DNA from: Gemmataceae bacterium
GTDB lineage: Bacteria > Planctomycetota > Planctomycetia > Gemmatales > Gemmataceae
Length of the DNA: 49,868 bases
Assembly: GCA_028288765.1 (NCBI GenBank)
Contig: JAQGHQ010000237.1
Coordinates: 1 to 49,868 of the forward strand
Direction of reading: 5' to 3'
The number at the start of each line of letters is the position of its first letter. Within the stretch, counting starts at the first letter, position 1. The notes under the pieces were generated by a model. That model was given only the letters and a program-made list of their open reading frames with translations. It was not told the origin of the DNA and made no database searches. Shown here one piece after another: positions 8,798-49,792 of the stretch. The translations under genes were made by a program, and so were the position numbers.

Positions 8798-9988
8798 TTA
8801 CTGTCCGCACCGACCCAGTTCCGACCGCACCCACCCGCTGAAGACCTTCGCCCCCTCACGGTTCATATGGATGAGATCGGCGAAGTGGGTATCCGTCAGC
8901 CCGACTGCCGCCCGCGAAGCGCGGATCACCCGGAGCCCCGCCCCCTGCTCGACCTCGGCGAGCCGGGCCCGGTACTCGGCAAATTCGGCGGGGTACATGG
9001 CCTCCAGGTCGGCGGTCACGGGCATGTCGACGAGTACGAGGTCGACGCCCCGCACGCCACACCAGATGGCCAGTTCGTGCAGGTATTTGAGGTGCGAGCC
9101 GGTCCGGTACTTACGGAGGTACGGGAACTCCTTCGGCCGGAGCCCGGCCGCCTTCACCGCGTCGTACCGCCCGACCGAGTACCCCCGCGCGGGGGCGTAC
9201 CCGTTCCCGGTCCGCAATGCGTCCGCCCGTTCCCGCAACTCGTCCGCCTCCCCCACGGCTTCCGGACAGCTGCCTGGCAGCTGCCGGTCGGCCTCCGTCG
9301 CCGCCCACATGCGGATCCCGTGGCGATACCGGTAGAGGTCTGATGCCCGACCGAGGCGGGCCTGCGCGAAGTGCCTGACGACCCACTCGGCGGAGTCGGG
9401 GCGAAGCCGGACCCAACGGCCGACGTCGCCGGTCGTCATGAGCGAATACGGCCCGTGCGGCTCGTGCCGGCTGTCGTTCAGGTCGCTCGCGGTGATCCCG
9501 TAGACGAGCACCCGGGGCGGTGTCGGGCACCCGCGAAGAACGGCGTGGTAGAAGTCCGAAGTCGTTCCGCCCGACAAGCCCATTGCGTAGGCGGACGCGA
9601 GGGGCTTCCCGGCCCAGGCCACGCCCGCGACGCGGTCCGGGTTGATGCCCTCCGCGACGGGCGACCCCCCGATGAAGACGAGGTCGCGCTGCTCTCGCGC
9701 GCACCCCTTCACCCGGGCGGCATAGTCGTCCGGGGAATGTCGATCCCAAACGGCGGCGAACCGACCGATCACCCGGTCCGTACCAAGGAGCATGAGGGCG
9801 AACAGGACGATCGTGCGGTTCCTGCTCACAAATGTCCACGTTCTGCGGAGGACTTTGGCGGTCGGCTCCACCGGCCCCAGCGCCGTGACCACCGTGACCC
9901 GGGCGACGGTCGGCCCGTCGGCCGGAAGCTGTCGGGGTTGGGTTTCGGGCGGGAGCGGCGTGCTCGGTGTCGTCTCGGTTGGTTTCAC
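8798..9988 (-). CDS. SGNH/AlgJ-like membrane-anchored acetylation partner
   Basis: A 396-residue protein with a proline-rich cytoplasmic N-terminus, one membrane anchor (about residues 58-72, TIVLFALMLLG) and a large outside domain. That domain has SGNH-hydrolase-like features: a block-I-type GGSPVAEG after a hydrophobic strand (LVFIGGS) and a C-terminal DLIHMNREG that would supply the Asp-x-x-His pair. It lies directly upstream of the MBOAT acyltransferase on the same strand, where such proteins complete polysaccharide O-acetylation or deacetylation on the outer face. The block-I Ser is in GGS rather than GDS, a common variant. Substrate and direction of the reaction cannot be told from the sequence. 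The anchored SGNH-like class is fairly secure, the exact subfamily is not. Confidence 0.7.
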   Translation of the reverse strand: MKPTETTPSTPLPPETQPRQLPADGPTVARVTVVTALGPVEPTAKVLRRTWTFVSRNRTIVLFALMLLGTDRVIGRFAAVWDRHSPDDYAARVKGCAREQRDLVFIGGSPVAEGINPDRVAGVAWAGKPLASAYAMGLSGGTTSDFYHAVLRGCPTPPRVLVYGITASDLNDSRHEPHGPYSLMTTGDVGRWVRLRPDSAEWVVRHFAQARLGRASDLYRYRHGIRMWAATEADRQLPGSCPEAVGEADELRERADALRTGNGYAPARGYSVGRYDAVKAAGLRPKEFPYLRKYRTGSHLKYLHELAIWCGVRGVDLVLVDMPVTADLEAMYPAEFAEYRARLAEVEQGAGLRVIRASRAAVGLTDTHFADLIHMNREGAKVFSGWVRSELGRCGQ

Positions 9989-36777: not shown

Positions 36778-37184
36778 GTGGGTCGGCGGGTAAGGACCGG
36801 CGGGTGGGTCGATCTACCCAGGATACTCGCCCTGCGGGTCAGGACCAACCCTCATTCCGTTGCTTGAACCCGCCGGAGATGATTCGGTACGCGAGGCCGC
36901 CCAGGGGTTTCGCCCTGGAACCGAGGACGGCCGCCCCTCCCCGGGCGAAGGGTGCGGAAGCCGGGGAGCGACGGCCGGTCGTAGCCCGGAGCGGGCCAGC
37001 TCATACGGCCGAAACCACCGCGTTCCCGGAGAAGGCCCAGGAAACCGATGGTACGCCGCCGTCCGGTCGCCTATTCATCCCGTCTTGATTCGTCGGGGAC
37101 CCGCAATATAGTCCGCCGCTCGTTCACAACAACTCATCCGTGAGTGGACCGTCGGCCGGGGGGCCGCGCGAGGTCGGAGGCGCC
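36778..37184. other. Intergenic region with a short palindrome
   Basis: No convincing gene in these 407 bp between the divergent PSD1-type and LptD-like genes. A perfect stem CCAGGG-GTTTCG-CCCTGG lies at 36901-36918. Promoters for both genes should be here, but none is near consensus. Confidence 0.4.
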
Positions 37185-39959
37185 GTGGTCAGGCGTTGGC
37201 TCGCAATCTGTCTGGGGGCGTGTGCCGCGACCGCCATCGCTGCCCCGGAGGTGCGCGCACAGCCCTCCCCCGTGATCGGGTTGCCGGTCGTATCCGACCC
37301 CGCGACCGATTACCCGCTGTCGACCGACCGGCTGATGGCCCCGCCCCCTGTGGTCCCGCCGCGGCGGTCGTACCAGCGGCCGACGCCCCCAACGGGGGCC
37401 GCCGGCGACCCGGCCGCCCCCCCGGAACCCCCGGGCATCACCCTCCCCGACGGGGCCCAGATCCCTCTCCCGGCCGGCGGCGGGCGGTACTTCCGCTTCG
37501 TCCCCCGGTACGGCCAGCTGAACAACTTCAGCAGTGAGAAACTAACGAACGGGACCCAGGGGCCCCCGACCCAGCGGTTCGTGATCACCGGCGGCGTGAT
37601 CGTGTACGTCAGCCCCGGGGATGGTCAGGGCGAGATCGAGTTCGCCACGGACGACGCGGTCGTGTGGATCCGCGGCCAGCAGGTGGACAACATCGCGGGC
37701 GGGTTCGAGGCCGGGCCCGAGAACAAGCGGGAGGTCGAGGTCTACCTGTCCGGGAACGTGATCATCCGGACGGTCTCGACGAACGGCGGCCAGTCGTTCA
37801 GCCAGACGCTCCGGTCCGACCAGGTGTATTACGACGTGTCCCGGAACCGGGCGATCGCCGTGGCCGCGGAGCTGGAACTCAACACCCCGCGGGTGCCCGA
37901 CGGGGTCTACCTCCGCGGCCGCGAAATCCGCCGCCTGGACGAGGCGAACTGGGAGATTTTGAAGGGCTCGGTGTTCTCTAGCAAGCTCCCGGCGGACCCC
38001 GGCCTCCGGTTCGACTCGCCGCGGATCACGCTCCGCGAGACCAAGCAGCCCCGGCGGAACTTCCTCGGCATTCCGTACCGGGATTTCAGCGGCAACCCGG
38101 ACGACGGGGTCGAGCGGTTGATGACGCTGAGGAACTCGACCACCTGGCTGGCCGGAATCCCGGTGTTCTACTTCCCGTATTACCGGGCGGACGTGAACGA
38201 GCCCCTCGGCCCGCTCAACGGCGTCGGGGGCGGGCAGGACCGGATCTTCGGCACCCAGTTCTACACCACCTGGGACATCTACAAGATCATCGGGATTAAA
38301 TCCCCGCCCGGGCACAAGTGGCTGCTCCACCTCGATTACCTGAGTTCCCGCGGGCCCGCCGCCGGGACCGATTACTACTACTCCCTCCCCCCGCGGGAGG
38401 ACCGCGTCACACCGGCCGGCCTGGGCTTCGCCCGGCTGTACGGGATCAACGACACCGGTCAGGACGTGATCGGCGGGGGCCGCGGGCCGCTCCTGGACCA
38501 TCCTGTGTCTCGGGGCCGGGCACTCTGGCGGCACCAGCAGGAGATCACCGACGAGCTGTACTTCCAGGGGCAGATCGCGTACCTCAGCGACCAGAACTTC
38601 CTGGAGCAGTACTACAAACAGGAGTTCGACCTCGGCCCGAACCAGGAGACGTTCGCGTACCTGACGTACCAGCGGGAGAACCTGTGGGCGGGCGGGTTGA
38701 TCCAACCCAAGCTGGGCCAGAACTGGATCACCCATACCGAGTCGCTGCCCAAGCTCGACGGGGCCGTGGTCGGCCAGTCGTTCTGGGACCTGTTCGTGTA
38801 CAACGCCCGGGCGGACGCCACGTACGCCCAGCTCAGGCCGTCTCAGGTGAACCCCTTCCCGGTGGAGGTGACCGACCAGCAGGCCAACAGCGGGCGGTTC
38901 GACCTGAACCAGGACCTCAGCCTCCCGTTCGCCCTCGGCCCGGTCAAGCTCGCCCCCTACGCGGTGCTCGACCTGGCCGACTACACCCAACACCTGACCG
39001 GGAATCCCCAGGACCCGACCGGGGGCAACATCGGGAGGGTGTACGGGGCGGGCGGCCTGCGGGGGAGCCTGCCGCTCTCCCGGCTGTACGAGGAAGTATA
39101 CAGCGAGCTGTTCAACGTCCGCGGCCTCTACCACAAGGTGACGGTGTCCGGGAACTACTACTACGCCCGGACGAACGTCCAGTTCAACCAGCTCCCCCAG
39201 TTCGACCGCCTGAACGACGACGTCACGGACTACACGTTCCGGTACGCCCGGCCGGCCCAGTCCCAGCTGGTCAGCGGGCCGGCCGGGGTCGCGCTGGCCA
39301 CGTCCCCGATCTTCGACCCGCAGCAGTACGCGATCCGCCGGCTGGTGGACAACCGGGTGGACACCCTGGGGAACATCAACGTCCTCCAGATGGACCTCCG
39401 CCAGCGGCTCCAGACGAAGCGGGGATACCCGGGGCTCGAGCACACGGTCGACTGGTTCACCCTGGACGTGTCCGGGTCGTTCTTCCCGGACCCGAACCGG
39501 GACAATTTCGGCAAGCCGTTCGCATTTCTGGAGTACAGTGGCCTGTGGAATGTGGGGGACCGGGTGTCGGTCCTGTCCGCCGGGTGGTTCGACCCGTTCG
39601 AGTTCGGGACGCGGTACTGGAACCTCGGGGTCGCTTTCGACCGCACGGACCGGACGAGCTTCTACTTCGGGTACCGGCAAACCGACCCGCTCAACAGCAA
39701 GGCGGTGACCGCGTCGATCGGCTACCAGCTGAGCCGGCGGTACTACACCAGCATTGGGGCAAGTTACGACTTCGGGATCCAGAAGGCACTGAGCAACTCG
39801 CTCACCCTGACCCGGACCGGGGCTGACATGACCGTCACGATCGGGCTCACGTACAACGCCCTGGTAAACAACACGGGGTTCACGTTCATGGTAATCCCGA
39901 ACGTGCTCTCGGCCCTCGCCCCCGGCCGGTTCAGCTCGATCGGGATGGCCGGTCGCTGA
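37185..39959 (+). CDS. LptD-like outer-membrane barrel protein (OstA family)
   Basis: A 924-residue exported protein resembling LptD, which inserts lipopolysaccharide into the outer leaflet. After the signal peptide (MVRRWLAICLGACAATAIAA, cleaved near VRAQ) and a proline-rich linker, an LptA/OstA-type beta-jellyroll segment follows (VITGGVIVYVSPGDGQGEIE, VYLSGNVIIRT, DQVYYDVSRNRAIAVAAELE), then the barrel, marked by LRNSTTWLAGIPVFYFPYY and many alternating aromatic strands to the C-terminus. The four cysteines that form disulfides in E. coli LptD are not present, so oxidative maturation must differ. I prefer the GTG at 37185, with GGAGG just before it; a GTG at 37140 is also in frame. Lipid A genes are not adjacent. 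Confidence 0.8.
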   Translation: MVRRWLAICLGACAATAIAAPEVRAQPSPVIGLPVVSDPATDYPLSTDRLMAPPPVVPPRRSYQRPTPPTGAAGDPAAPPEPPGITLPDGAQIPLPAGGGRYFRFVPRYGQLNNFSSEKLTNGTQGPPTQRFVITGGVIVYVSPGDGQGEIEFATDDAVVWIRGQQVDNIAGGFEAGPENKREVEVYLSGNVIIRTVSTNGGQSFSQTLRSDQVYYDVSRNRAIAVAAELELNTPRVPDGVYLRGREIRRLDEANWEILKGSVFSSKLPADPGLRFDSPRITLRETKQPRRNFLGIPYRDFSGNPDDGVERLMTLRNSTTWLAGIPVFYFPYYRADVNEPLGPLNGVGGGQDRIFGTQFYTTWDIYKIIGIKSPPGHKWLLHLDYLSSRGPAAGTDYYYSLPPREDRVTPAGLGFARLYGINDTGQDVIGGGRGPLLDHPVSRGRALWRHQQEITDELYFQGQIAYLSDQNFLEQYYKQEFDLGPNQETFAYLTYQRENLWAGGLIQPKLGQNWITHTESLPKLDGAVVGQSFWDLFVYNARADATYAQLRPSQVNPFPVEVTDQQANSGRFDLNQDLSLPFALGPVKLAPYAVLDLADYTQHLTGNPQDPTGGNIGRVYGAGGLRGSLPLSRLYEEVYSELFNVRGLYHKVTVSGNYYYARTNVQFNQLPQFDRLNDDVTDYTFRYARPAQSQLVSGPAGVALATSPIFDPQQYAIRRLVDNRVDTLGNINVLQMDLRQRLQTKRGYPGLEHTVDWFTLDVSGSFFPDPNRDNFGKPFAFLEYSGLWNVGDRVSVLSAGWFDPFEFGTRYWNLGVAFDRTDRTSFYFGYRQTDPLNSKAVTASIGYQLSRRYYTSIGASYDFGIQKALSNSLTLTRTGADMTVTIGLTYNALVNNTGFTFMVIPNVLSALAPGRFSSIGMAGR

Positions 39960-40061
39960 GGCCGGGGGAACGGGTCTGGTACAATCCGCGGGGTCGCCCG
40001 GGGCCCCGCGGTGGGTGGGCCGGCCCACTTTTCATGTCGACCTTTATACCCGGAGTATCCC

Positions 40062-40490
40062 ATGCCCGCGGAATGGTGGGATCCGACCCCCGTCACAGTT
40101 CCGCCGGTCCGGCCGAAGAAGGCGCGGCGGTGGCGGGACAAGTTCCGGGAGGCGTTCCGCGGCGTCAAACTCGGGGTCCGTGGGCACTCCAGTTTCAGCG
40201 TCCACTTCTTCTTCGCCGCCCTGGTGGTTGCCGCCGCACTCGTCCTCGAGTTCGACTGGGTCGAATGGTGTCTGGTCCTGGGGTGCGTCGGGGCCGTGAT
40301 CACGACGGAACTGGTCAACAGCGCGATCGAGACGCTCTTCCACGGGCTCGACCAGGAGACGAAGGACCGGACCTGTGGGTGCCTGGACATTGCCGCCGGG
40401 GCGGTCCTGGTCGCGAGCCTCACCGCCGCGGTCGTGGGCCTCACCGTCTTCGGGCAGAAATTATTGGGCTTACTCCGTCATACCGGGTGA
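40062..40490 (+). CDS. dgkA: Diacylglycerol/undecaprenol kinase
   Basis: A 142-residue integral membrane lipid kinase of the DgkA family, phosphorylating diacylglycerol or undecaprenol for phospholipid or cell-wall-lipid recycling. A charged N-terminal tail (1-30) precedes three membrane helices. The catalytic signature is ELVNSAIE (83-90), preceded by the helix WCLVLGCVGAVITT and followed by KDRTCGCLDIAAGAVL, which supplies the conserved Asp and AAGAVL. The ATG at 40062 has a GGAG seven nt upstream and is preferred over an upstream start at 40011. In Gram-positive-like family members undecaprenol is the substrate; the sequence does not decide. It converges on the BBP7 gene. Confidence 0.92.
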   Translation: MPAEWWDPTPVTVPPVRPKKARRWRDKFREAFRGVKLGVRGHSSFSVHFFFAALVVAAALVLEFDWVEWCLVLGCVGAVITTELVNSAIETLFHGLDQETKDRTCGCLDIAAGAVLVASLTAAVVGLTVFGQKLLGLLRHTG

Positions 40491-40536
40491 AGCCCGATCC
40501 CGGGCTCCCCCAGGTGGGGCGGCCCGGGGTCGGGCC
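40491..40536. terminator. Two adjacent short hairpins between convergent genes
   Basis: AGCCCG-ATCC-CGGGCT (40491-40506) and GGCCCG-GGGT-CGGGCC (40521-40536) are perfect 6-bp stems between the ends of dgkA and the BBP7 gene. They may terminate transcription from both sides; no T tract. Confidence 0.4.
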
Positions 40537-40544
40537 CCCCGGCG

Positions 40545-42245
40545 TTACCACGTCCACTGGACCCCGAAGTTGATCCCCTGGGCCCAGAAGTCCGTGGTCC
40601 GGAGCTGGGGGCTCGGCCGCGGGACGCCGGCGAGCGGCGCCGGGTTGCCCGCGAGCGGGAAGTTCGGGATCCGGGCCGCGTCCACGGTCGTGTCGATCGT
40701 CCCGGCGGCACGTACAACGCTGCTCAGGTACAGGAAATTGTACCCGGTGAACACCCGCAGCCGCGGGGTGATGTGGTACCCGAGGTTGAGCCCGATCTCG
40801 GGCATGACGGCGAACTTGTCCTGGCTGAAGTGCCCGATGTTCGCCCCGGGCAGGGCGAGCAAGCCGCCCTGGAACTGGGCGATCTGGCCGTTCGGGAAGA
40901 CGAGCGCCTGCCCACCCCCGATCTCGGCCGACTGGTGGACGGTGCCGAAGGCGATCGTCGACCGTCCGTTCACGAACCACCGGCCCCGCCGGAGCTCTCC
41001 GGTCAGCCCGATCTGGCCGCCGTAGAAGTTGTTCGCCGCCCGGAACCGGTCGCTGACCGTTCCGCCGATGGCCGGGACCCCGACCGCCATCGGCGACCCC
41101 GGGGTCCGCACGAAGGTCTCGGTGATCGCCAGGTCTTCGGTGAAGTTCAAGTACCGGAACCCGACCAGCCCGTCGAGCCGGAAGCACGCGTTACCGAGCA
41201 GGAACCGGCGGTAGTTCACGTCGGCCCCCCAGAGCGAGTTCTCCAACGTTGTCACCACCCGGCCGGCCGCCAACCCCGTCGCCCCGATCACCTCCGCGAA
41301 CGGCCCGACCGGGGTGTTCACGTTAAAGAACGGCCGGGCGAGTAGGGGGTAAGTGTTGGTGTCCGCCGCGAACTGGTTCCCGTTCCGGAACAGGAACAGG
41401 AAGCTGGCGTCGATCCCACGCCGCTGCTCGTCGGTGAACCAGTACCCGCCGCTGAACCGGGCCCCGCCGTGGAGCGTCTGGCCGAACGACCCGCCCAGAA
41501 TCGTCTGGGTGTTACCGAGCCCCGGGATCCCGTTAAACGCAGGCGAACTGGTGGTGACCAGGGGCGGGAGCTGGGTGCTCCGGGTCCACCACATCAGGTT
41601 TTCCGCGCTCACCCACGACCGGCCATCGGTACACCCGACCAGCCGCCGCAGTGCCGGGAAGTGGGGGGTGCCCCCCACCACGGGGTCGCCGTACAGGGGG
41701 GCGTCGACGGCCGGTTGCGGGCACGGGAGACCGGGACCGCAGTCGAGGGGCCCGACCTGGGGAATGACTGTGGTCCCGGGGATGGCGCCCGGCTCCCCAG
41801 GCGAGCCCCCCGTAATCAGAGGGAAGCCTACCGTCGGTACGCCCATCGTGACGGGCGGTCCCACCGGGACCCCGCCGGGCACCGGGCCCCGGACCTCGGT
41901 CACGCTCGGTCCACTCCCGACTTGGCGGGGGGGCGGGAGCGGGCTCGGCCCGACCGGCTGCCCTCCCACCGGCAACAGTGTCGCGGCCGGAGTTCCGGGG
42001 CCGACCGGCGGGGCGTACGGAGTCAATTGCCCGCGGGCGATCAGCCCGGCCGGCGTCACCTCGGTGGTCGAAGGCGCGTCCGGAATGGCGACCGGCATCC
42101 CGAGCCGGGCGGCCCGGACGGTCGGGTTTTTCGGGACGGGTGAGTTGTACGGAGCGGCGGGACGACCGGGGACCTCCTGCGCGCCGGCGGGGCGGACGAA
42201 CACCCCGAGCGCGATCCCCAACCCGCCGAGTAGAACGCGGCGCAT
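40545..42245 (-). CDS. BBP7-type outer-membrane beta-barrel protein
   Basis: A 566-residue exported protein. The signal peptide (MRRVLLGGLGIALGVFVRPA, ending GAQ) is followed by a long proline-, glycine- and valine-rich region (about 22-200). The C-terminal part is the BBP7 barrel of planctomycetes, recognised by WVSAENLMWWTRSTQLPPLV, SGGYWFTDEQRRGIDASFLF, NFYGGQIGL and the terminal aromatic strand INFGVQWTW. The ligand or function is unknown; these proteins are abundant in planctomycete outer membranes. The start ATG at 42245 has a perfect AGGAGG eight nt before it. It ends 55 bp from dgkA on the opposite strand. Confidence 0.88.
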   Translation of the reverse strand: MRRVLLGGLGIALGVFVRPAGAQEVPGRPAAPYNSPVPKNPTVRAARLGMPVAIPDAPSTTEVTPAGLIARGQLTPYAPPVGPGTPAATLLPVGGQPVGPSPLPPPRQVGSGPSVTEVRGPVPGGVPVGPPVTMGVPTVGFPLITGGSPGEPGAIPGTTVIPQVGPLDCGPGLPCPQPAVDAPLYGDPVVGGTPHFPALRRLVGCTDGRSWVSAENLMWWTRSTQLPPLVTTSSPAFNGIPGLGNTQTILGGSFGQTLHGGARFSGGYWFTDEQRRGIDASFLFLFRNGNQFAADTNTYPLLARPFFNVNTPVGPFAEVIGATGLAAGRVVTTLENSLWGADVNYRRFLLGNACFRLDGLVGFRYLNFTEDLAITETFVRTPGSPMAVGVPAIGGTVSDRFRAANNFYGGQIGLTGELRRGRWFVNGRSTIAFGTVHQSAEIGGGQALVFPNGQIAQFQGGLLALPGANIGHFSQDKFAVMPEIGLNLGYHITPRLRVFTGYNFLYLSSVVRAAGTIDTTVDAARIPNFPLAGNPAPLAGVPRPSPQLRTTDFWAQGINFGVQWTW

Positions 42246-42628
42246 GGTGCGGTCCTCCTGACACGCAATCGGGCCCGGAGAGAGGCGGGCCGCAACGGGC
42301 CCATCCCGGGCCGGGCGGGCCTGGTGCGAACAGTGCGACCGGCCCAACGACACGTCATGTCACCAGTATTTTTCGGCCTCTCCCGCGCCTACTCTGCCCG
42401 GTCCTTTCCGCCCGGGCTTCTTCTTTCTCCCCGGCGCGCCCTTCCCCGCGGCTTCCGCAGATTCCCACCCCCGACACGGAAACCCGGCAGTTCACGCACG
42501 ACCCGCCCTGCCCTGGTGGAGTTCATAGTCCGCACAACCGGCGCGAAATGATGAAGCGGCGCCGTCCTCCCGGTCGAAGTAATGTGCAGAACCCGGATCA
42601 GCCGGGGAAGCAGGGTAAGGAGGAGGCC
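42246..42628. other. Divergent intergenic region BBP7 / proline-rich PEP-CTERM gene
   Basis: No gene is supported in these 383 bp. The frame of the plus-strand PEP-CTERM protein is open through it, but the well-placed AGGAGGAGG before 42629 decides the start. A weak sigma-54-like element is noted separately. Confidence 0.45.
42321..42337 (+). promoter_or_regulatory. Weak sigma-54-like promoter element
   Basis: CTGGTGCGAACAGTGCG has the required GG-N10-GC spacing (GG 42323-42324, GC 42335-42336) and matches ten of fourteen informative positions of the sigma-54 consensus. It would start transcription about 280 nt before the PEP-CTERM gene at 42629, similar to the leader length at the other PEP-CTERM gene. 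Chance is possible in GC-rich DNA. Confidence 0.3.
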
Positions 42629-43000
42629 ATGGCAGCGCGCCGCAGCCAGTGGAAGCTGATTTTGCCGACCGCGACTCTGACCGTGTTCCCGTTCACGGTA
42701 TTCGCTCCGTCGGCCCAAGCGTTCTTCCCGCCGGTCAGCCCACCGCCCCCGCCCGTCACGGTGGTCATCCCGCCCCCGGTGACGCCGCCGGTCGTGGTCG
42801 TCCCCCCGGTGTCGCCACCGCCGTTCGTGTCCCCGCCCCCGGTGACGCCGCCGGTCGTGGTCGTGCCCCCGCCCTGTGATACCTGCGGGTGCCCCCAAAC
42901 CATCCCGGAACCGTCGAGCCTCGTCGCCGGGATCGCGGGGCTTGCCACTGCCGCGGGGTGGGCGGTCCGCCGGCGGCGGAAAGGTCAAAATATCGAGTGA
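42629..43000 (+). CDS. Short proline-rich PEP-CTERM protein
   Basis: A 123-residue exported protein. The signal peptide is about residues 1-31 (LILPTATLTVFPFTVFAPSA, ending QA). The mature part is almost wholly Pro/Val-rich (32-82), built from a PPPVTPPVVVVPP unit repeated twice and related motifs, then a cysteine-containing PCDTCGCP (82-89). The C-terminal PEP-CTERM sorting signal follows: IPEPSS (92-97), a hydrophobic helix (about 98-113) and a basic RRRRK. Exosortase-type enzymes cleave such signals and the protein is then anchored or released at the surface. AGGAGGAGG before the ATG fixes the start. Beside it lies an XrtA-type polysaccharide deacetylase, consistent with a PEP-CTERM locus. 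Confidence 0.85.
   Translation: MAARRSQWKLILPTATLTVFPFTVFAPSAQAFFPPVSPPPPPVTVVIPPPVTPPVVVVPPVSPPPFVSPPPVTPPVVVVPPPCDTCGCPQTIPEPSSLVAGIAGLATAAGWAVRRRRKGQNIE
42769..42864 (+). repeat. 33-bp perfect direct repeat inside the proline-rich gene
   Basis: Copies at 42769-42801 and 42832-42864, 63 bp apart (beginning CCCGCCCCCGGTGACG), encode the repeated PPVTPPVVVV unit. The in-frame spacing lets the repeat expand or contract without frameshift. Confidence 0.9.
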
Positions 43001-43069: not shown

Positions 43070-43972
43070 TCACCCGGACAGGGAGAAGCGCGGAAGTTCT
43101 ACCCCGGACCGGCGGATGTCGCGGACCACATCGATTGCCCGCCGGAACCGGTAGGCCGAGAGGAGGGCGGCGAGCCGGGTCGTCGTCCGCCCGACCCCCA
43201 CGTACGTTCGCCACCGGGCCAACCGGGGGAGTGGAAGATGGGGTTGCCCGGGATCGAACTCCCACGGGTGGAAGTACAACATGCCCACCGCCGGCCGAGC
43301 CCGGGCCGCCTGTCCGAGCCCGGCACGCATCATACATAGTGGGAACAGCCGAAAATACCCGCCGCCGGCGACCGGGAGATTGAGCCCGGCGACCCGATAC
43401 GTTAAGGGCGGCAATTCCAGGATCTCGCCCACCTTACCGACCGCGACGAACGGGCCCCGTGGGGCCTCGGGTATACCGTAGCGGTCGTGTCGGACGGGGA
43501 AGACCGAGGAGTCGTACTCGAACCCGCACGCCGCCAACACGTCGACCGCCCATCCCGTTTCCCGGACCACGCTAAAGGTCGGAGCCCGAAAGCCGTAAAC
43601 CGGGCTTCCGGTTACGTGTTCGAGTGCGTCCTTGCTCCGCAACAGGTCGTCGCGGAATGTTTCCGGGGTGAACCGGTGGACCCGTTGGTGGTCCCAACTA
43701 TGCGACCCGACCTCGTGTCCCGCCGTGTGGATTGCCCGGACCAGCGTGGGGTGCGACCGGGCGATCTCTCCGACCACATAGAACGTCGCCGTCGTGCCGA
43801 CGGCGGCAAGTTGGTCGAGCAGCTGGTGGGTCGTCTTCTCCATCCGGCCGGCGTATGCGGATTTTGCCTCGGGCGTAACCTCCAGCCCGACAGCAGCTTC
43901 GATACGGTAGTGTTCTTCCACGTCGAAGCTGGCGATGTACGACGCTGGGTCGTTCGCTTGCTGGGTCGTCAC
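43070..43972 (-). CDS. Polysaccharide deacetylase of the XrtA/PEP-CTERM type (DUF3473 C-terminus)
   Basis: A 300-residue NodB-fold enzyme that removes acetyl groups from a surface polysaccharide. SFDVEEHYR (15-23) supplies the catalytic Asp, HEVGSHSWDH (86-95) the metal-binding His pair, and GFRAPTFS (127-134) the Arg-containing motif. The C-terminal part ends with VGMLYFHPWEFDP and is the DUF3473 extension that marks the version found in PEP-CTERM/exosortase (XrtA, EpsH-type) loci. It is flanked by two PEP-CTERM genes, which supports this. It starts with a GTG (43972) after GGGGAGTGAT. A near-consensus sigma-54 promoter lies about 100 bp upstream. No signal peptide is seen; the enzyme is likely cytoplasmic, as usual. 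Confidence 0.93.
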   Translation of the reverse strand: MTTQQANDPASYIASFDVEEHYRIEAAVGLEVTPEAKSAYAGRMEKTTHQLLDQLAAVGTTATFYVVGEIARSHPTLVRAIHTAGHEVGSHSWDHQRVHRFTPETFRDDLLRSKDALEHVTGSPVYGFRAPTFSVVRETGWAVDVLAACGFEYDSSVFPVRHDRYGIPEAPRGPFVAVGKVGEILELPPLTYRVAGLNLPVAGGGYFRLFPLCMMRAGLGQAARARPAVGMLYFHPWEFDPGQPHLPLPRLARWRTYVGVGRTTTRLAALLSAYRFRRAIDVVRDIRRSGVELPRFSLSG

Positions 43973-44073
43973 ATCACTCCCCGGGGTTGACGGCAGGCGA
44001 GTTCCCAGTGGTCCAATCTAGATCACTCCACGGGTGAGTGGCCCGGTTGGAAGCAACCAGGGCGTAAACTTTA

Positions 44074-44090
44074 CGCAACGCCCGCGCCAG
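44074..44090 (-). promoter_or_regulatory. Sigma-54 promoter of the polysaccharide deacetylase
   Basis: Read on the minus strand, CTGGCGCGGGCGTTGCG matches twelve of fourteen informative positions of the -24/-12 consensus. GG (44088-44087) and GC (44076-44075) are exactly 10 bp apart. The start would be near 44063, about 90 nt before the deacetylase GTG. The -12 element overlaps a perfect palindrome GCGTAAACTTTACGC (44062-44076), which could let a repressor block it. Confidence 0.7.
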
Positions 44091-44108
44091 TCATTCCGAT
44101 ACCAAGAA

Positions 44109-44150
44109 GTTGCGCGCCGCGACGAGGTGCCGATTCAGGGGTGGCGCAAC
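44109..44150. promoter_or_regulatory. Dyad between divergent sigma-54 promoters, putative enhancer site
   Basis: GTTGCGC (44109-44115) and GCGCAAC (44144-44150) are exact reverse complements, between the two divergent sigma-54 promoters. Enhancer-binding proteins usually bind such dyads 80-200 bp upstream of the -24 element, so this site could serve the plus-strand promoter, and the minus-strand one at closer range. The activator (perhaps PrsR-like, by analogy with known PEP-CTERM loci) is not in the window. Confidence 0.4.
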
Positions 44151-44227
44151 TCGAATCCCGGCAACATAACGTATTCGGACCAGATATTTTGCAGCGCGGC
44201 AGAATCCCCTTAATCGGCACGTTCAAC

Positions 44228-44244
44228 TTGGCACTCTGATTGCT
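44228..44244 (+). promoter_or_regulatory. Sigma-54 promoter of the second PEP-CTERM gene
   Basis: TTGGCACTCTGATTGCT matches twelve of fourteen informative consensus positions, including all of TGGCAC and TTGC, with GG (44230-44231) and GC (44242-44243) spaced by 10 bp. The start would be near 44255, giving a leader of about 270 nt before the PEP-CTERM gene. It faces away from the deacetylase promoter. The rest of 43973-44522 holds no supportable gene. Confidence 0.75.
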
Positions 44245-44522
44245 AACTGATTTTTGCCGATATCAGCGGAATTGGGTTGACAGCAAGGCCATTTAATCGC
44301 TTTGCTAGTTAACAGGCCGCTGCCGCACCCTGACAGCGAGCCGCACCGGCCGGGTCCCCTTTTACCCGGTCGGGGGAGTGATGCCCCAGGACGCGACCCC
44401 TAACCCCGGTCGTCCACTTCCGGATCGCGGCAGAGTCGACCCTGACAAGGATGTCTTCCCGGGCGCTCGTGCGGATTGTATACTCAGAAGTTCGACTGCC
44501 CGATTCGAGGAGCCCACCCGTC

Positions 44523-45314
44523 ATGGTCTTGCGAAACTTACGCTGGTTGTCCGCGAGTGTGCTGGCGGCCGTCGCCATGCTCTCCGCCCCAGCCCGGTCA
44601 GAAGCCGGGACCCAGATCCTCATTGAAGAAGTCGACAACCTGGGGAACCCGGTTCCCGGCTCGGCTCAGTACTTCAGCGGAACCTCGGCGACATTCGCGA
44701 CCACGAACTTCCTGAACATCACGGTGACCGCCACGGCCAACTCGGGGGCGGTTAGTTCTCTCACGACGACCGTATCGGCGGTGCCCGCGACGACCTTCGA
44801 CGCCACCCACTCGCTCGAGGTGATCGTCACCAACGACAGCTTCACCACCCCGAACGTGGGCGGAACGGCACTGGTCCAGAACAACGCCGCCGCGTCCTCC
44901 GGGATCGGGGGTGGGCAGAACATCCTCACGAACGCCACCCAGCTGTTCAACCTTCCGCTCAGCCCGGACACGACCTCGACCTCCGCGCTCGCCACCGGGA
45001 CCGCGCTCGGTTCCGCGACCGGGGTGGCCACCGATACCCGGCCGGGTGGTGGGGCCTCCCAGACGACCATGTCGAACATCTCGAACCTGCCGTCCGCGTT
45101 CGCGATCCAACAGACGATCTTCGTCCGGGCCAACCCGACCGACCCGGCTGGGATCTCGACCGGCTCCACCCTCGGCGGGTCGGCCAGCTCGATCGTCATC
45201 ACCTCACCGGCCCCGGTCCCGGCCCCGGCCGGGTTGGCTTTGGCCCTCGCCGCGGTGCCGGTCCTCGGCCTCCGCCGGGCCCTCCGTCGCAAGACCGAGG
45301 CGGTCAACGGCTGA
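44523..45314 (+). CDS. PEP-CTERM-type exported surface protein
   Basis: A 263-residue exported protein. After the signal peptide (about 1-28, LRWLSASVLAAVAMLSAPAR, ending SEA) comes a Ser/Thr/Ala/Asn-rich, beta-strand-rich domain with no cysteine, typical of low-complexity PEP-CTERM cargo. The C-terminus has a variant sorting signal: VPAPAGLALALAAVPVLGLR, then RALRRK, where the Pro-Ala-Pro replaces the usual Pro-Glu-Pro. Such variants occur in planctomycetes. A long frame runs upstream, but the ATG at 44523 (GAGGAG before it) gives the right signal peptide. A strong sigma-54 promoter lies upstream and a clear terminator downstream, so it is monocistronic and separately regulated. Function: probable surface or biofilm-matrix protein. 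Confidence 0.85.
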   Translation: MVLRNLRWLSASVLAAVAMLSAPARSEAGTQILIEEVDNLGNPVPGSAQYFSGTSATFATTNFLNITVTATANSGAVSSLTTTVSAVPATTFDATHSLEVIVTNDSFTTPNVGGTALVQNNAAASSGIGGGQNILTNATQLFNLPLSPDTTSTSALATGTALGSATGVATDTRPGGGASQTTMSNISNLPSAFAIQQTIFVRANPTDPAGISTGSTLGGSASSIVITSPAPVPAPAGLALALAAVPVLGLRRALRRKTEAVNG

Positions 45315-45421: not shown

Positions 45422-48400
45422 GTGCGTCGCGTTCTCAGCTGGAAGCGGCTCCTGATCGTCCTCGGGGTCCTCGTCACCCTCTCCGCCGCGACCTACGGCG
45501 TCCACGCCGTCCAGAACCGGCGCCACGCCACAGCGCTCAAGGAACGCGCGGCCAAGGCCGCGGAGGCGTCCGCCACCGACCCGGCGAAGGCGGAAGAGGC
45601 CATCTCCCTACTCGAGCAGTACCTGAAGTTCCGGCCGAGGGACGAGGAAGCGTTCCACCGGTATTCAACCCTGATGTTCGCCCAGGCCAAGGCCGACCCG
45701 AAGCAGGCGAGTGCGGCGGCGGAGGCCGGGGAGAAGTTCCTCCGCCAGTTCCCGGACCACCCCGACGACCGGCGGAAGCTAATCGACCTGTACGTGGACC
45801 TCGGCCGGCTGATGAACGCCCGCCAGCACATCCAGATCATGTTCGACACGAGGCCCGAGCTCAAGGAGGACGTGGACCTGCTCGACAAGGCCGCGACGTG
45901 CGAACTGGGCCTCGGCGGCGACGTGGGGCAGGCGGTCCGGTACCTCGACACCGCGGTCCAGACGAAGAAGGCCCCGCCGCGGGTGTTCGAGCGGCTGCTC
46001 GGGATGCTTTACGGGAAGAACGCCTACTCCGACCCGCGGTACACGCCGGCCAAGTACCTCGAGGTCCTGCTCAACGAGGAGCCGTACAGGTCGGACATCG
46101 CGGCCCGGGTCGTGGCCGGCCGGTTCATGCTCCTCAGCGGGGAGACCCAGAACGCCCGCAAGCACATCACCGACGCCATCACGAACATGCGCGACGGGGC
46201 CACGGACGCCGACGCCCTGATGGCGCTGGCGGAGCTGGAGTTGGCGGAGATCAAGACCTCCGAGACGATCCGGGCCCAGCTGAAAAAGGCCGAGGCCCAC
46301 CTGCAGACGGCGTTCACCGCCCACAAGAAGAACGTCCGGGTCGGGCTGATGCTCGCCCAGGTGCTCACCGAGGAGGGGGAGGTCAAACAGGCGATCGAAG
46401 TCCTCCGGACGTCGGCCGACGCGCTGGGGGGCACGAACGACGAATTCCTCCTCGTGGTGGACCGGCTCCTCGACCTCGGGGAGCAGGACCTGTCGCGCAC
46501 CCTGATCGACCGGATCGCCACGAACGAGGCGGACCGCGAGCGGATCGTGAAGTACCTGCGCGGGCGGATGGCGCTGCTCAAGGGGAACTGGGCCACCGCC
46601 CGGACGAACCTCGAGGAAATCGCCCCGGCCCTGGTCCGGGTCCGCGACTTCCACAAGAAGGCGATGTACGGGATCGGGCGATGCTACGGGGTCCTCCAGA
46701 ACCCGGACAAGCAGATGGAATGCTACAGCGCCGCCCTCCAGGACGACCCCCGGTACCTGCCGGCGCTGATCGGGCGGGCCGAGGCGAACTTCCGGCTCGG
46801 CCGGTACCGGGAAGCGTCGGGCGACTACCAGACGATCGTCAACGGGTACGGTCTGGCCGCGTACCGGCCGAAGCTCGCCCGGCTCGAACTTCGGGCCGTC
46901 GTAAAACAGCCCGCCCCGGCGCGGCGGTGGGACGCGTTCGAGAAGAGCCTCGGGCCGGACGCGGACCGGACCCCCGAGCTCCAGATCCTTTACGCCGAGT
47001 CGCTGGCGGCCCGTGGGGACGGTGAGGGCGCCGCCAAGGTGCTCCAGGCGATCGTCGACAAGGACCCGAAGAACGCGGCCGCCTGGCTCGCCCTCGCCCG
47101 GGTCCGCGGGGGCGGGAGTCCCGACGGCGCGGTCAAGCTCCTCGATGAAGCCGCCGCGAAGATCGGGGACACGGTCGATCTGCGGCTGGCCCGCTCCCTC
47201 GTCCTCGTGAACCGGACCCGGAAGCCGACGCCCAACGAGATCCGGGCGCTGGCGGAGAAGGCGGAGAACTTCGAGAAGTGGGACCGCCGCCGGCTCTGGT
47301 TCGGGCTCGGCGAGGCCGCCTCCCGCGCCGCCCTGATCGCCGACGAGCCGGACGCCGCCGCGCTGCGGGCCCTGGCGATCGAGTACCTCCAGAAGGCGGC
47401 CGACCTCGACCCCGAGGACCTGATGACCCGGGCGGCCCTGGTCGACGCCGGCCTGGCCGCCGGCCGACCGGACGTGGTCGACGCCGCGCTCGCGGGGATC
47501 GCGGCGGTGGAAGGCGAGAAGGGCCCGATCGGGACCCTGTCCCGGGTCGTCAAACAGCTGCCGGAGGTCCGCCGGACCGCGGACAAGGCGGTCCGGGCGG
47601 TCGGGATCGCCGACCTGCGGGCCCTCGCCAACCGGGCGAAGGCGGACCGCCCGGGATGGGCCCGGGTGTACGTCGCCCTCGCCCAGCTCGACGAGCTGGA
47701 GGGGCTCAACGACGCCGCCCTGGCGAACTACAAGGAGGCGATCGAGAAGGGCGAGCGGCAGGAGTTCGTCATCCGCCGGGCGGTCGAGCTCTACCGCGAC
47801 CGCCGGCAGGAAGACCAGGCCGCCCTCCTGCTCAACTCGCTGCACACCGAAGTCCCACTGCCCGAAGACCTGGAGCGGTTCCGCGCGATCAAGGACCTCC
47901 TGGCCCGCGACATCCCCAGGAGCGAGCGGCCGACCATCGACCGGGTCGCCCCGGCGGACTCGAAGGACTGGCGGGTCCTCCTCCTGCGCGGCTCACTGCT
48001 GGCCACCCTCGGGGAGGACGCCGACGCCCATGCCGCGTTCCGCGCGGCCGTCGCGCTCGGGGACAACGTCCCCGAGACCTGGGGCGCGATGGTCTCGCAC
48101 CTGATCCGGATCGGCCGGGTCGAGGACGCGAAGCGGGCGACCGCCGAGGCCGAACAGAAGCTGAAGGACAACCCCCCGAAAACCGACGCCGCCCGGGCCG
48201 AACTGATCATGACCCTGGCCGGGTGTTACGAACTGACGGGCGACCAGCACACCGCCCTGAACCGCTACCAGGAGGCCGTCAATGCGGCCCCGCGGGAGCT
48301 GAACCCGACCCGCCAGCTCGTCCTATTCCTCCAGCGGTCCGGGAAGATGGCCGACGCGAACAAGAAGCTCCAGGGCCTGGCCGATGACGCCACCCCGGAC

Positions 48401-49792
48401 CTCGCCCGGTGGGCCCGCCGCCACCTGGCACTCACCATGATGGCCGGGGCGGATGCGTACAACCAGCGGGAGGCCGCCCTGAAGCTGATCGCCCCGAACC
48501 TCGCCGCCAGCAAGACCGACCCGGAGGACGTAAAGGCCCGGGCGGTGGTCCTGACGATCGACCCGGCTACCCGGGAGGAGGGGACGAAAACACTCGAGGA
48601 GTTCGCCAAGTGGGGCGACCTCACCCCGGACGAGTTCTTGCTGCTCGGCCGGCTGTACTTCGACCAGGGGAAGGTGGCCGAGTCGGTCACGTACTTCGAG
48701 AAGGCCGCCCGCCCGCGGGCCGGGCTGAGCGCCGGCCACCTCGCCGAGCTGATCCGGGTTTACCTCGGGATGAACATGCTGGAGAACGCCCGGGCCGCGG
48801 TAAGCCGCCTTAAAGCCTTCGCCCCCCGCAGCTGGGACGCCGCCCGCGAGGAGGCCCGGTTCCTCCACCGGGAGGCCGCCGAGGCCGAACGGGTGGGCAA
48901 CAAGGAGGGGGCGAAGAAGCTCGACGCCCAGGCCCTCGCCCTGATCACGACGTTTCCGGGCGGAACGACCGAACCGTTCGTGCGGACCCGGTCGGGGCCG
49001 TTGCTGGAGGAGCTCGGGTTCACGGACACCGCCGAGGGTCTGTACACCCGACTACTGACCGAGGCTAAAGACCCGAGCCCGCATCTCCCACTCGCCGCGC
49101 TCCGGATCGGTCAGAAGCGGTCCGCCGATGCCATCGAGTTGGCGTGGAAGTACAAGGACACGACGCCGGCGGTGGTGACCGCCCGCATCCTGACGGGGGC
49201 GATCCGGGCGCGGAACCCGGGCCCGGAGGCCGAGCGGAAGGTCGAAGCGTGGCTGGACGAAAAGCTCCGGCAGTCCGTCGAAAAGTGGGAGCAACTCGCC
49301 CTGCTGGGGTCGAAGGCGGAGCTGTTCGACGCGCTGAAGAATTACGACGAGGCGATCGCGACCTACGAAAAGGCCGTCCACCTGGCCGAGGCCGCCCGGC
49401 CGGACGAACTGAAGGGCTTCCAGACCGAGCTGTTCGTCAACAACATGTGCGTCGTCCTCGTCCTGCACCGGCACCGCGAGGCGGACCGGGCGATCAAGAT
49501 GATGTCCGCGGTGATCGGCGTCCGCGGCCCGATCCCGGCCTATCTCGACACCCGGGCGCTCGGGTATCTCGTGAAAGGCGGCAAGACGAAAGAGGCGGTG
49601 GCCGACCTCAAACTCGCCCTGATCCAGCAGAAGCGGCCGGTCTACCTGTTCCACCTCGCCTGGGCTTACGCCCAGGACCCGGACACCCGGTCGCTCAGCA
49701 TCACCCCGCGGGAGGAGGCCAAGAAACTCGGCCTCGCCGTCGAGGACCTGCACCCACTGGAGGTGTGGAAGTTCGAGGAAATGTACCGGTAG
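45422..49792 (+). CDS. Very large membrane-anchored TPR-repeat protein
   Basis: A 1456-residue protein with an N-terminal signal anchor (about residues 9-28, RLLIVLGVLVTLSAATYGVH) and, from about 45 to the end, tetratricopeptide repeats. The TPR pattern, with paired helices and Ala/Gly/Tyr positions, is visible at many places (AEEAISLLEQYLKFRPRDEE, ALNRYQEAVNAAPRELNPTR, YDEAIATYEKAVHLAEAARP). There is no lipobox. PEP-CTERM loci often include a TPR lipoprotein (PrsT); this one is similar in repeat content but membrane-anchored and much longer, so I do not assign that name. It probably scaffolds protein contacts on the outside of the inner membrane. It starts with GTG at 45422 (GAGGG upstream) and is complete; the final 76 bp of the window hold nothing. 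Confidence 0.85.
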   Translation: MRRVLSWKRLLIVLGVLVTLSAATYGVHAVQNRRHATALKERAAKAAEASATDPAKAEEAISLLEQYLKFRPRDEEAFHRYSTLMFAQAKADPKQASAAAEAGEKFLRQFPDHPDDRRKLIDLYVDLGRLMNARQHIQIMFDTRPELKEDVDLLDKAATCELGLGGDVGQAVRYLDTAVQTKKAPPRVFERLLGMLYGKNAYSDPRYTPAKYLEVLLNEEPYRSDIAARVVAGRFMLLSGETQNARKHITDAITNMRDGATDADALMALAELELAEIKTSETIRAQLKKAEAHLQTAFTAHKKNVRVGLMLAQVLTEEGEVKQAIEVLRTSADALGGTNDEFLLVVDRLLDLGEQDLSRTLIDRIATNEADRERIVKYLRGRMALLKGNWATARTNLEEIAPALVRVRDFHKKAMYGIGRCYGVLQNPDKQMECYSAALQDDPRYLPALIGRAEANFRLGRYREASGDYQTIVNGYGLAAYRPKLARLELRAVVKQPAPARRWDAFEKSLGPDADRTPELQILYAESLAARGDGEGAAKVLQAIVDKDPKNAAAWLALARVRGGGSPDGAVKLLDEAAAKIGDTVDLRLARSLVLVNRTRKPTPNEIRALAEKAENFEKWDRRRLWFGLGEAASRAALIADEPDAAALRALAIEYLQKAADLDPEDLMTRAALVDAGLAAGRPDVVDAALAGIAAVEGEKGPIGTLSRVVKQLPEVRRTADKAVRAVGIADLRALANRAKADRPGWARVYVALAQLDELEGLNDAALANYKEAIEKGERQEFVIRRAVELYRDRRQEDQAALLLNSLHTEVPLPEDLERFRAIKDLLARDIPRSERPTIDRVAPADSKDWRVLLLRGSLLATLGEDADAHAAFRAAVALGDNVPETWGAMVSHLIRIGRVEDAKRATAEAEQKLKDNPPKTDAARAELIMTLAGCYELTGDQHTALNRYQEAVNAAPRELNPTRQLVLFLQRSGKMADANKKLQGLADDATPDLARWARRHLALTMMAGADAYNQREAALKLIAPNLAASKTDPEDVKARAVVLTIDPATREEGTKTLEEFAKWGDLTPDEFLLLGRLYFDQGKVAESVTYFEKAARPRAGLSAGHLAELIRVYLGMNMLENARAAVSRLKAFAPRSWDAAREEARFLHREAAEAERVGNKEGAKKLDAQALALITTFPGGTTEPFVRTRSGPLLEELGFTDTAEGLYTRLLTEAKDPSPHLPLAALRIGQKRSADAIELAWKYKDTTPAVVTARILTGAIRARNPGPEAERKVEAWLDEKLRQSVEKWEQLALLGSKAELFDALKNYDEAIATYEKAVHLAEAARPDELKGFQTELFVNNMCVVLVLHRHREADRAIKMMSAVIGVRGPIPAYLDTRALGYLVKGGKTKEAVADLKLALIQQKRPVYLFHLAWAYAQDPDTRSLSITPREEAKKLGLAVEDLHPLEVWKFEEMYR

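Follow-up and report, generated by a model that had tools for sequence, protein, structure and literature searches.

A predicted sigma-54 control region upstream of a VPAP-CTERM cargo gene in a Gemmataceae bacterium

Genes of the locus and their relatives

The window, i.e. the whole analysed stretch of 49,868 nucleotides, is contig C457 of a Gemmataceae genome of 10.06 Mb in 615 contigs (completeness 93.9%). An XrtA-system polysaccharide deacetylase gene is located on the minus strand at 43070..43972. Its product was matched by PF11959, PF01522 and, above the cut-off of 276.2, by TIGR03006 (279.9 bits), and the XrtA-type label assigned in a previous sequence-only reading holds. A 263-residue protein is encoded divergently on the plus strand at 44523..45314 (below: cargo gene). 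It has a signal-peptide-like start and ends in a C-terminal VPAP, a hydrophobic stretch and an RR cluster, which corresponds to the tripartite PxP, hydrophobic stretch and basic end of exosortase-type cargo (VPAP-CTERM). VPAP and RR are invariant in 13/13 aligned orthologues; the alignment covered all of the 16 found except L089, L092 and L096. For the cargo product, no match to TIGR02595 or PF07589 was obtained at E 0.1.

Downstream of the cargo gene, a TPR protein resembling PrsT is encoded on the plus strand at 45422..49792 (TIGR02917, 88.8 bits, below the cut-off of 312.2). A canonical PEP-CTERM gene, above the TIGR02595 and PF07589 cut-offs, lies at 42629..43000 as a second cargo gene. 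It converges on the deacetylase gene, which is therefore flanked by two cargo-type genes, and its product contains proline/valine repeats. Genes for an LptD-like protein, a diacylglycerol kinase and a BBP7 porin (37140-42353) adjoin the cargo and deacetylase genes and make this an envelope-rich neighbourhood.

Of 95 family genomes, 61 contain the deacetylase, and 30 loci, window included, were fetched. In 10/30 of these, a cargo homologue is encoded divergently to the deacetylase; in at least five cargo-less ones (L023, L026, L027, L029 and L030, by eye) a TPR-like gene starts at the divergent position. With the deacetylase as query, the best 80 of 157 relatives were kept, including Gemmata sp. 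IIL30 (L234), a laboratory strain in whose locus the two-element module described below is present. The cargo protein as query returned none among named relatives, and plasmid records gave no match. Cargo orthologues were searched by scoring at most 27 candidates per genome and taking matches with E <= 5.3e-16. At least 16 places in 15 genomes were obtained, weaker matches being set aside, and 6/16 are away from the deacetylase (L087, L088, L092, L097, L098, L108).

Elements between the deacetylase and cargo genes

Elements were scored against the sigma-54 consensus TGGCACG-N4-TTGCW, which has 12 specified bases. The letters confirmed both -24/-12 elements that had been read in this region, each with exact GG-N10-GC spacing. 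The plus-strand element TTGGCACTCTGATTGCT (44228..44244) has flanking consensus and 11/12 specified bases at 44229-44244, i.e. one mismatch; the minus-strand element CTGGCGCGGGCGTTGCG (44090-44074) has two. In the usual sigma-54 geometry, transcription starts approximately 12 nt after the -12 GC, and a start at 44255 on the plus strand is accordingly predicted for the cargo gene.

The plus-strand element is conserved in part of the clade. An exact GG-N10-GC was found in 8/16 cargo orthologues (L086, which is the window, L087, L089, L090, L093, L094, L095 and L108; L090 and L095 are near twins), 47 nt (window: 48) ahead of a second conserved block. In L087 and L108 it occupies this fixed place though the deacetylase is not adjacent. 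GA replaces GG in L091 and L096, with TTGC retained, and a recognisable element is absent from L088, L092, L097, L098, L099 and L100. These six losses and two GA variants count against sigma-54 control of the cargo gene, since rpoN is present in all 15 genomes.

The second block, GGAATTGGGTTGACA-N15-CGCTTTGCTA (44268..44307, plus strand), lies in the predicted leader. As GGAATcGGGTTGACA-N15-CGCTTTnnTA it was found upstream of 15/16 cargo genes, also where the -24/-12 is lost, and its distance from the -24/-12 is fixed wherever the latter exists. Mean pairwise identity was 0.55 at the -24/-12, 0.87 at the TTGACA block, and approximately 0.26-0.34 farther out on both sides (14 of the 16 sequences; L088 and the near twin L095 left out). 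Identity thus peaks at the block (0.87 over 16 nt vs approximately 0.3), and that the strongest conservation falls here and not on the -24/-12 also speaks against sigma-54 control.

The main rival to that reading concerns this block. The cargo gene could be read mainly from TTGACA-N15-CGCTTTnnTA as a second promoter that a sigma-70-family or ECF polymerase recognises. The TTGGCA-N6-TTGC box would in that case be an activator site and not a sigma-54 promoter. The retention of the block in 15/16 orthologues, even without a -24/-12, favours it. However, both the letters and the spacing of the box match the sigma-54 consensus, the genome holds no second copy of the strict block pattern, and at two other cargo genes of this genome (on contigs C522 and C478) the upstream element and a -24/-12 occur without the block. 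TTGACA was also rejected as a general -35 of the genome, as no -10 preference was seen in 654 upstream regions; this is weak evidence because just 17 usable TTGACA occurred in them. Taken together, we consider a main promoter at the TTGACA block unlikely.

A wide regulon defined by the block was likewise rejected: a one-mismatch match was obtained in 15/95 genomes (control: 5), and 14 of these 15 matches lie before the cargo gene. A spaced-dyad search of the genome sample gave no clear vegetative promoter. In the intergenic part of that sample, CTG-N10-CCA was over-represented upstream of genes (64 vs 24 expected, 31 antisense).

The block downstream of the -24/-12 would sit within a sigma-54 transcript and could in principle be a structured leader RNA; CCGATTC/GGAATCGG hairpins are possible in some loci. 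No Rfam match was obtained at E 1, the consensus fold reached -0.62 kcal/mol with 3 pairs, and, with 61 to 104 of 500 shuffles reaching the same level, hairpin covariation was not clearly elevated. With none of the three analyses in its favour, this candidate was rejected as very improbable.

A probable activator site farther upstream is GCGTAAACTTTACGCAACGCCCGCGC (44062..44087, plus strand), a TGTAAAC-type block that is often a repeat with a period of approximately 21. It contains the palindrome GCGTAAACTTTACGC (44062-44076), the window version of the block near TGTAAACTTTYGGAWGCGCCGTGTAA. This palindrome is indeed present next to the -12 of the minus-strand element, as described before, but it is part of an element that is tied to the cargo gene and also occurs at L087 and L108. 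By anchored matching, 12/16 cargo orthologues have the element, 154-176 nt ahead of the -24 position, namely the ten deacetylase-adjacent loci, L087 and L108; L099 and L100 have a half-site only. A profile scan of the window (score >=13) gave no second upstream element of this type.

For leave-one-out profiles, each locus was removed in turn and 100 shuffles were scored per locus. In 9/10 loci with a -24/-12 (GG or GA), the window among them, the score was at least 16.7 and 0/100 shuffles were as high. The tenth, L089, keeps its -24/-12 with an element score of 5.3 (14/100 shuffles as high). The element of L108 was first spotted by eye after the search pattern had missed it, and later passed leave-one-out. 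In the six cargo loci without a -24/-12, scores were at most 7.1 and 0/6 were recovered; the 7.1 belongs to L092, on the opposite strand, and beat 100/100 shuffles. The co-occurrence of both elements was therefore 9/10 vs 0/6 (Fisher p 0.0009) and, for exact GG sites only, 7/8 vs 2/8 (p 0.04), with relatedness ignored in both tests. The best profile score in 20 deacetylase loci without adjoining cargo was 9.5. L099 and L100, when taken as deacetylase loci (L022 and L025), scored 1.0 and 5.0. Since scores track the cargo loci with a -24/-12, and cargo-less deacetylase loci stay at or below 9.5, the element goes with the cargo gene.

In a relative, a VPAP-CTERM gene (L109; contig C710 of G092) has an element scoring 20.6 and no -24/-12 at the expected distance. 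Profile matches in L283 (15.5) and L292 (16.6) fall within predicted genes and were regarded as noise.

On the deacetylase side the picture is different. The sequence-only reading had two divergent sigma-54 promoters in one control region co-regulate deacetylase and cargo. The exact GG-N10-GC spacing of both elements, the divergent cargo homologue in a third of the fetched loci and an upstream element that could act on both genes are in line with this design. However, a deacetylase-directed -24/-12 at <=2 mismatches within 500 nt was found in 0/29 other loci (L006 with only 120 nt), and one at 3 mismatches in 1/29 (L014). In addition, the minus-strand element overlaps the cargo-linked upstream element, which is also present at cargo genes away from the deacetylase (L087, L108), and in 6/29 loci (L004, L006, L007, L010, L012, L013) a sigma-70-like TTGAG-N18-TACYYT faces the deacetylase. 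The minus-strand -24/-12 is thus probably a look-alike and not a promoter, and a different promoter probably serves the deacetylase. The deacetylase half of the proposed shared control was rejected, and we regard the divergent design as a whole as very unlikely.

In the six loci, the sigma-70-like pattern reads TTGAG[TC]-N18-TAC[CT][CT]T with GTGC preceding TAC, and is likely the sigma-70 promoter of the deacetylase in these relatives; it was not found in the window. The halves of the dyad GTTGCGC/GCGCAAC, which had also been pointed out between the two elements, are present at 44109 and 44144. As a regulatory feature the dyad was rejected, as it is not conserved in a ten-locus alignment; by a rough estimate, chance alone should supply a 7-bp inverted repeat with this separation in a region of this kind.

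Sigma-54 machinery and the same pair at other cargo genes

An rpoN gene, the absence of which had been named as evidence against the proposed promoters, is present in 1 copy in each of the 15 genomes examined, source genome included. The source genome further contains 34 sigma-54 activator-domain matches, some of them fragments, and 3 exosortases. Control of the PrsK/PrsR type, which had been mentioned as known for some PEP-CTERM loci, was not supported: the best genome match to PrsR (TIGR02915) scored 409.6 bits (cut-off 502.6) and the best kinase match to PrsK (TIGR02916) 118.7 bits (cut-off 300).

The outcome of a sigma-54 motif scan was mixed. In 216 kb of intergenic DNA from a 1.53-Mb sample, 15 GG-N10-GC sites with <=1 mismatch were counted vs 0-6 for seven other spacers; 6 of the 15 were the reason why their contigs had been fetched, 3 lie elsewhere on such contigs and 2 in the window. 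This intergenic, spacer-specific enrichment suggests that sigma-54 is in use in the genome. With <=2 mismatches, the class of the minus-strand element, there were 46 sites vs 10-31 for the other spacers in the same 216 kb, and a single site of this class is therefore weak evidence. Genome-wide, the strict pattern had 17 matches vs 15 for its reversed control; hence there is no excess of strict sites regardless of position.

For a scan with the upstream-element profile, 2.18 Mb (approximately 22% of the genome) were used. These contigs are a non-random set, chosen for length or for activator, kinase, sigma-54, PEP-CTERM or exosortase matches. Two outliers were obtained, the window (22.5), on which the profile had partly been trained, and contig C522 (21.4), on which it had not; the next score was 15.4. 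Both are followed by a -24/-12 166-167 nt on and then by a VPAP-CTERM gene. The -24/-12 of C522, CGGCACGCCGGATGCT, has 2 mismatches and lies 166 nt after the element; the gene behind it encodes a different protein ending in VPAPPG..RRR. A -24/-12 with 2 mismatches is also present on C478.

Only once C522 and C478 had been inspected was a profile-free pattern drawn up; it asks for two GTWAA copies with a period of 20-22 nt and a -24/-12 at a distance of 150-176 nt. In the 2.18 Mb it matched two places only, C522 and C478, each before a gene ending in VPAPPG..RRR, and at nine control distances it had 0 matches. With a single half-site, 2 matches were found at 150-176 nt (C522 and the window) vs 4 over nine control distances. 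Sixty letter orders of the half-site were compared: two matches were obtained with the true order, one with each of five others and none with the remainder.

Upstream DNA of the window, C522 and C478 genes gave no alignment above shuffles. The C522 and C478 proteins are alike only in the last 37 residues (78%), and the window cargo shares nothing with them beyond a weak tail match (E 2.5). As the upstream DNA is unalignable and the proteins share tails only, the common module is not a recent duplication.

In the genome sample, 8 reading frames passed a C-terminal filter, 5 of which were judged by eye to be PAP-type cargo genes. The module was found at 3/5 and is absent at C573 and C277. The C478 gene (L328, 10420-11529) is a VPAP-CTERM gene with the module; its start is uncertain because there is no clean in-frame ATG. 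Inspection by eye of C573 (L220, 247-14848) showed an exosortase gene at 1898-2656 with exopolysaccharide-like neighbours, a 1422-residue protein resembling the window TPR protein by length and start, and the PAP-type cargo gene without a sigma-54 module.

Support for sigma-54 control of the cargo gene comes from the conserved -24/-12 and its fixed spacing, from the upstream element, which is conserved too, and from the recurrence of this pair at two further cargo genes. The low element score of L089, the L109 gene, the two PAP-type genes that lack the module and the strict-site count near its reversed control weigh on the other side. That the plus-strand element drives the neighbouring gene is thus retained from the sequence-only reading; its description as a PEP-CTERM gene is not, as the product ends in VPAP and matches neither PEP-CTERM family.

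Proposed control and comparison with known systems

Judged from these comparisons of DNA sequence, the cargo gene is likely controlled from the intergenic region by sigma-54 in an enhancer-dependent manner. The TGTAAAC element at 44062-44087 would be bound by an NtrC-type activator, and looping of approximately 150 bp of DNA would bring this activator to the promoter. There it would open the sigma-54 RNA polymerase held at 44228-44244 and thereby switch on the VPAP-CTERM protein, which is expected to be sorted to the envelope by an exosortase.

A comparable arrangement was described for proteobacterial PEP-CTERM genes (PMC1569441), which have a 17-nt motif 1, ending in TTTACA and sometimes repeated, followed by a sigma-54 motif 2 at a mean distance of 63 nt (32-92); among the species discussed there, the motifs were common to Proteobacteria only. 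Common to both are long upstream regions, a sigma-54 -24/-12 in front of the gene for exosortase cargo, an activator motif farther upstream and a PrsT-like TPR protein. Compared by its TTTACA end only, motif 1 resembles the present element, which is TTTACA-like on the other strand in several loci and likewise often repeated. In contrast to the 32-92 nt given there, the predicted activator site here lies 154-176 nt before the -24, and an ungapped alignment up to approximately 60 nt before the -24 showed no conserved block. Moreover, PrsK and PrsR are below cut-off here and the cargo ends in VPAP, not PEP. As distance, sorting signal and the missing PrsK/PrsR differ, the module would work like the proteobacterial system described there and is not classed as a member of it.

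In Aquincola tertiaricarbonis, pepA lies upstream of prsT and has a mapped RpoN1-dependent start with the -24/-12 TGGCAC / CTGCTT; according to the same account, pepA transcription depends on rpoN1 and prsT is seemingly unaffected (PMC9850573). The order of cargo gene and TPR gene is the same as in the window. Unlike that proteobacterium with prsK/prsR, the present case is a planctomycete with VPAP cargo and a promoter predicted from sequence. Sigma-54 regulons were predicted in Planctomycetia (PMC12316311), which shares with the present case the predicted planctomycete sigma-54 promoters; its main text makes no mention of PEP-CTERM, exosortase or exopolysaccharide. Among the openly available papers searched, nothing joining PEP-CTERM, planctomycetes and RpoN/sigma54 was found beyond PMC1569441.

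What is predicted here is an enhancer-dependent sigma-54 module outside Proteobacteria, serving exosortase-type cargo. Beyond the single locus, Gemmataceae may have a sigma-54 regulon of their own for VPAP-CTERM surface proteins, with tandem GTWAA approximately 165 bp before the -24 and a non-PrsR activator, a proposal to which we give an even chance. If it is correct, sigma-54 control of exosortase cargo arose or was rewired outside Proteobacteria. A conserved module in a planctomycete family would widen the link between sigma-54 and envelope cargo. It would also name cargo genes that are switched on together, and the element could serve as DNA bait for the activator.

On another contig of the genome (C509, L221; 10 kb), a sigma-54 activator match (1266-1766) is found together with the genome's best PEP-CTERM match (9363-9434).
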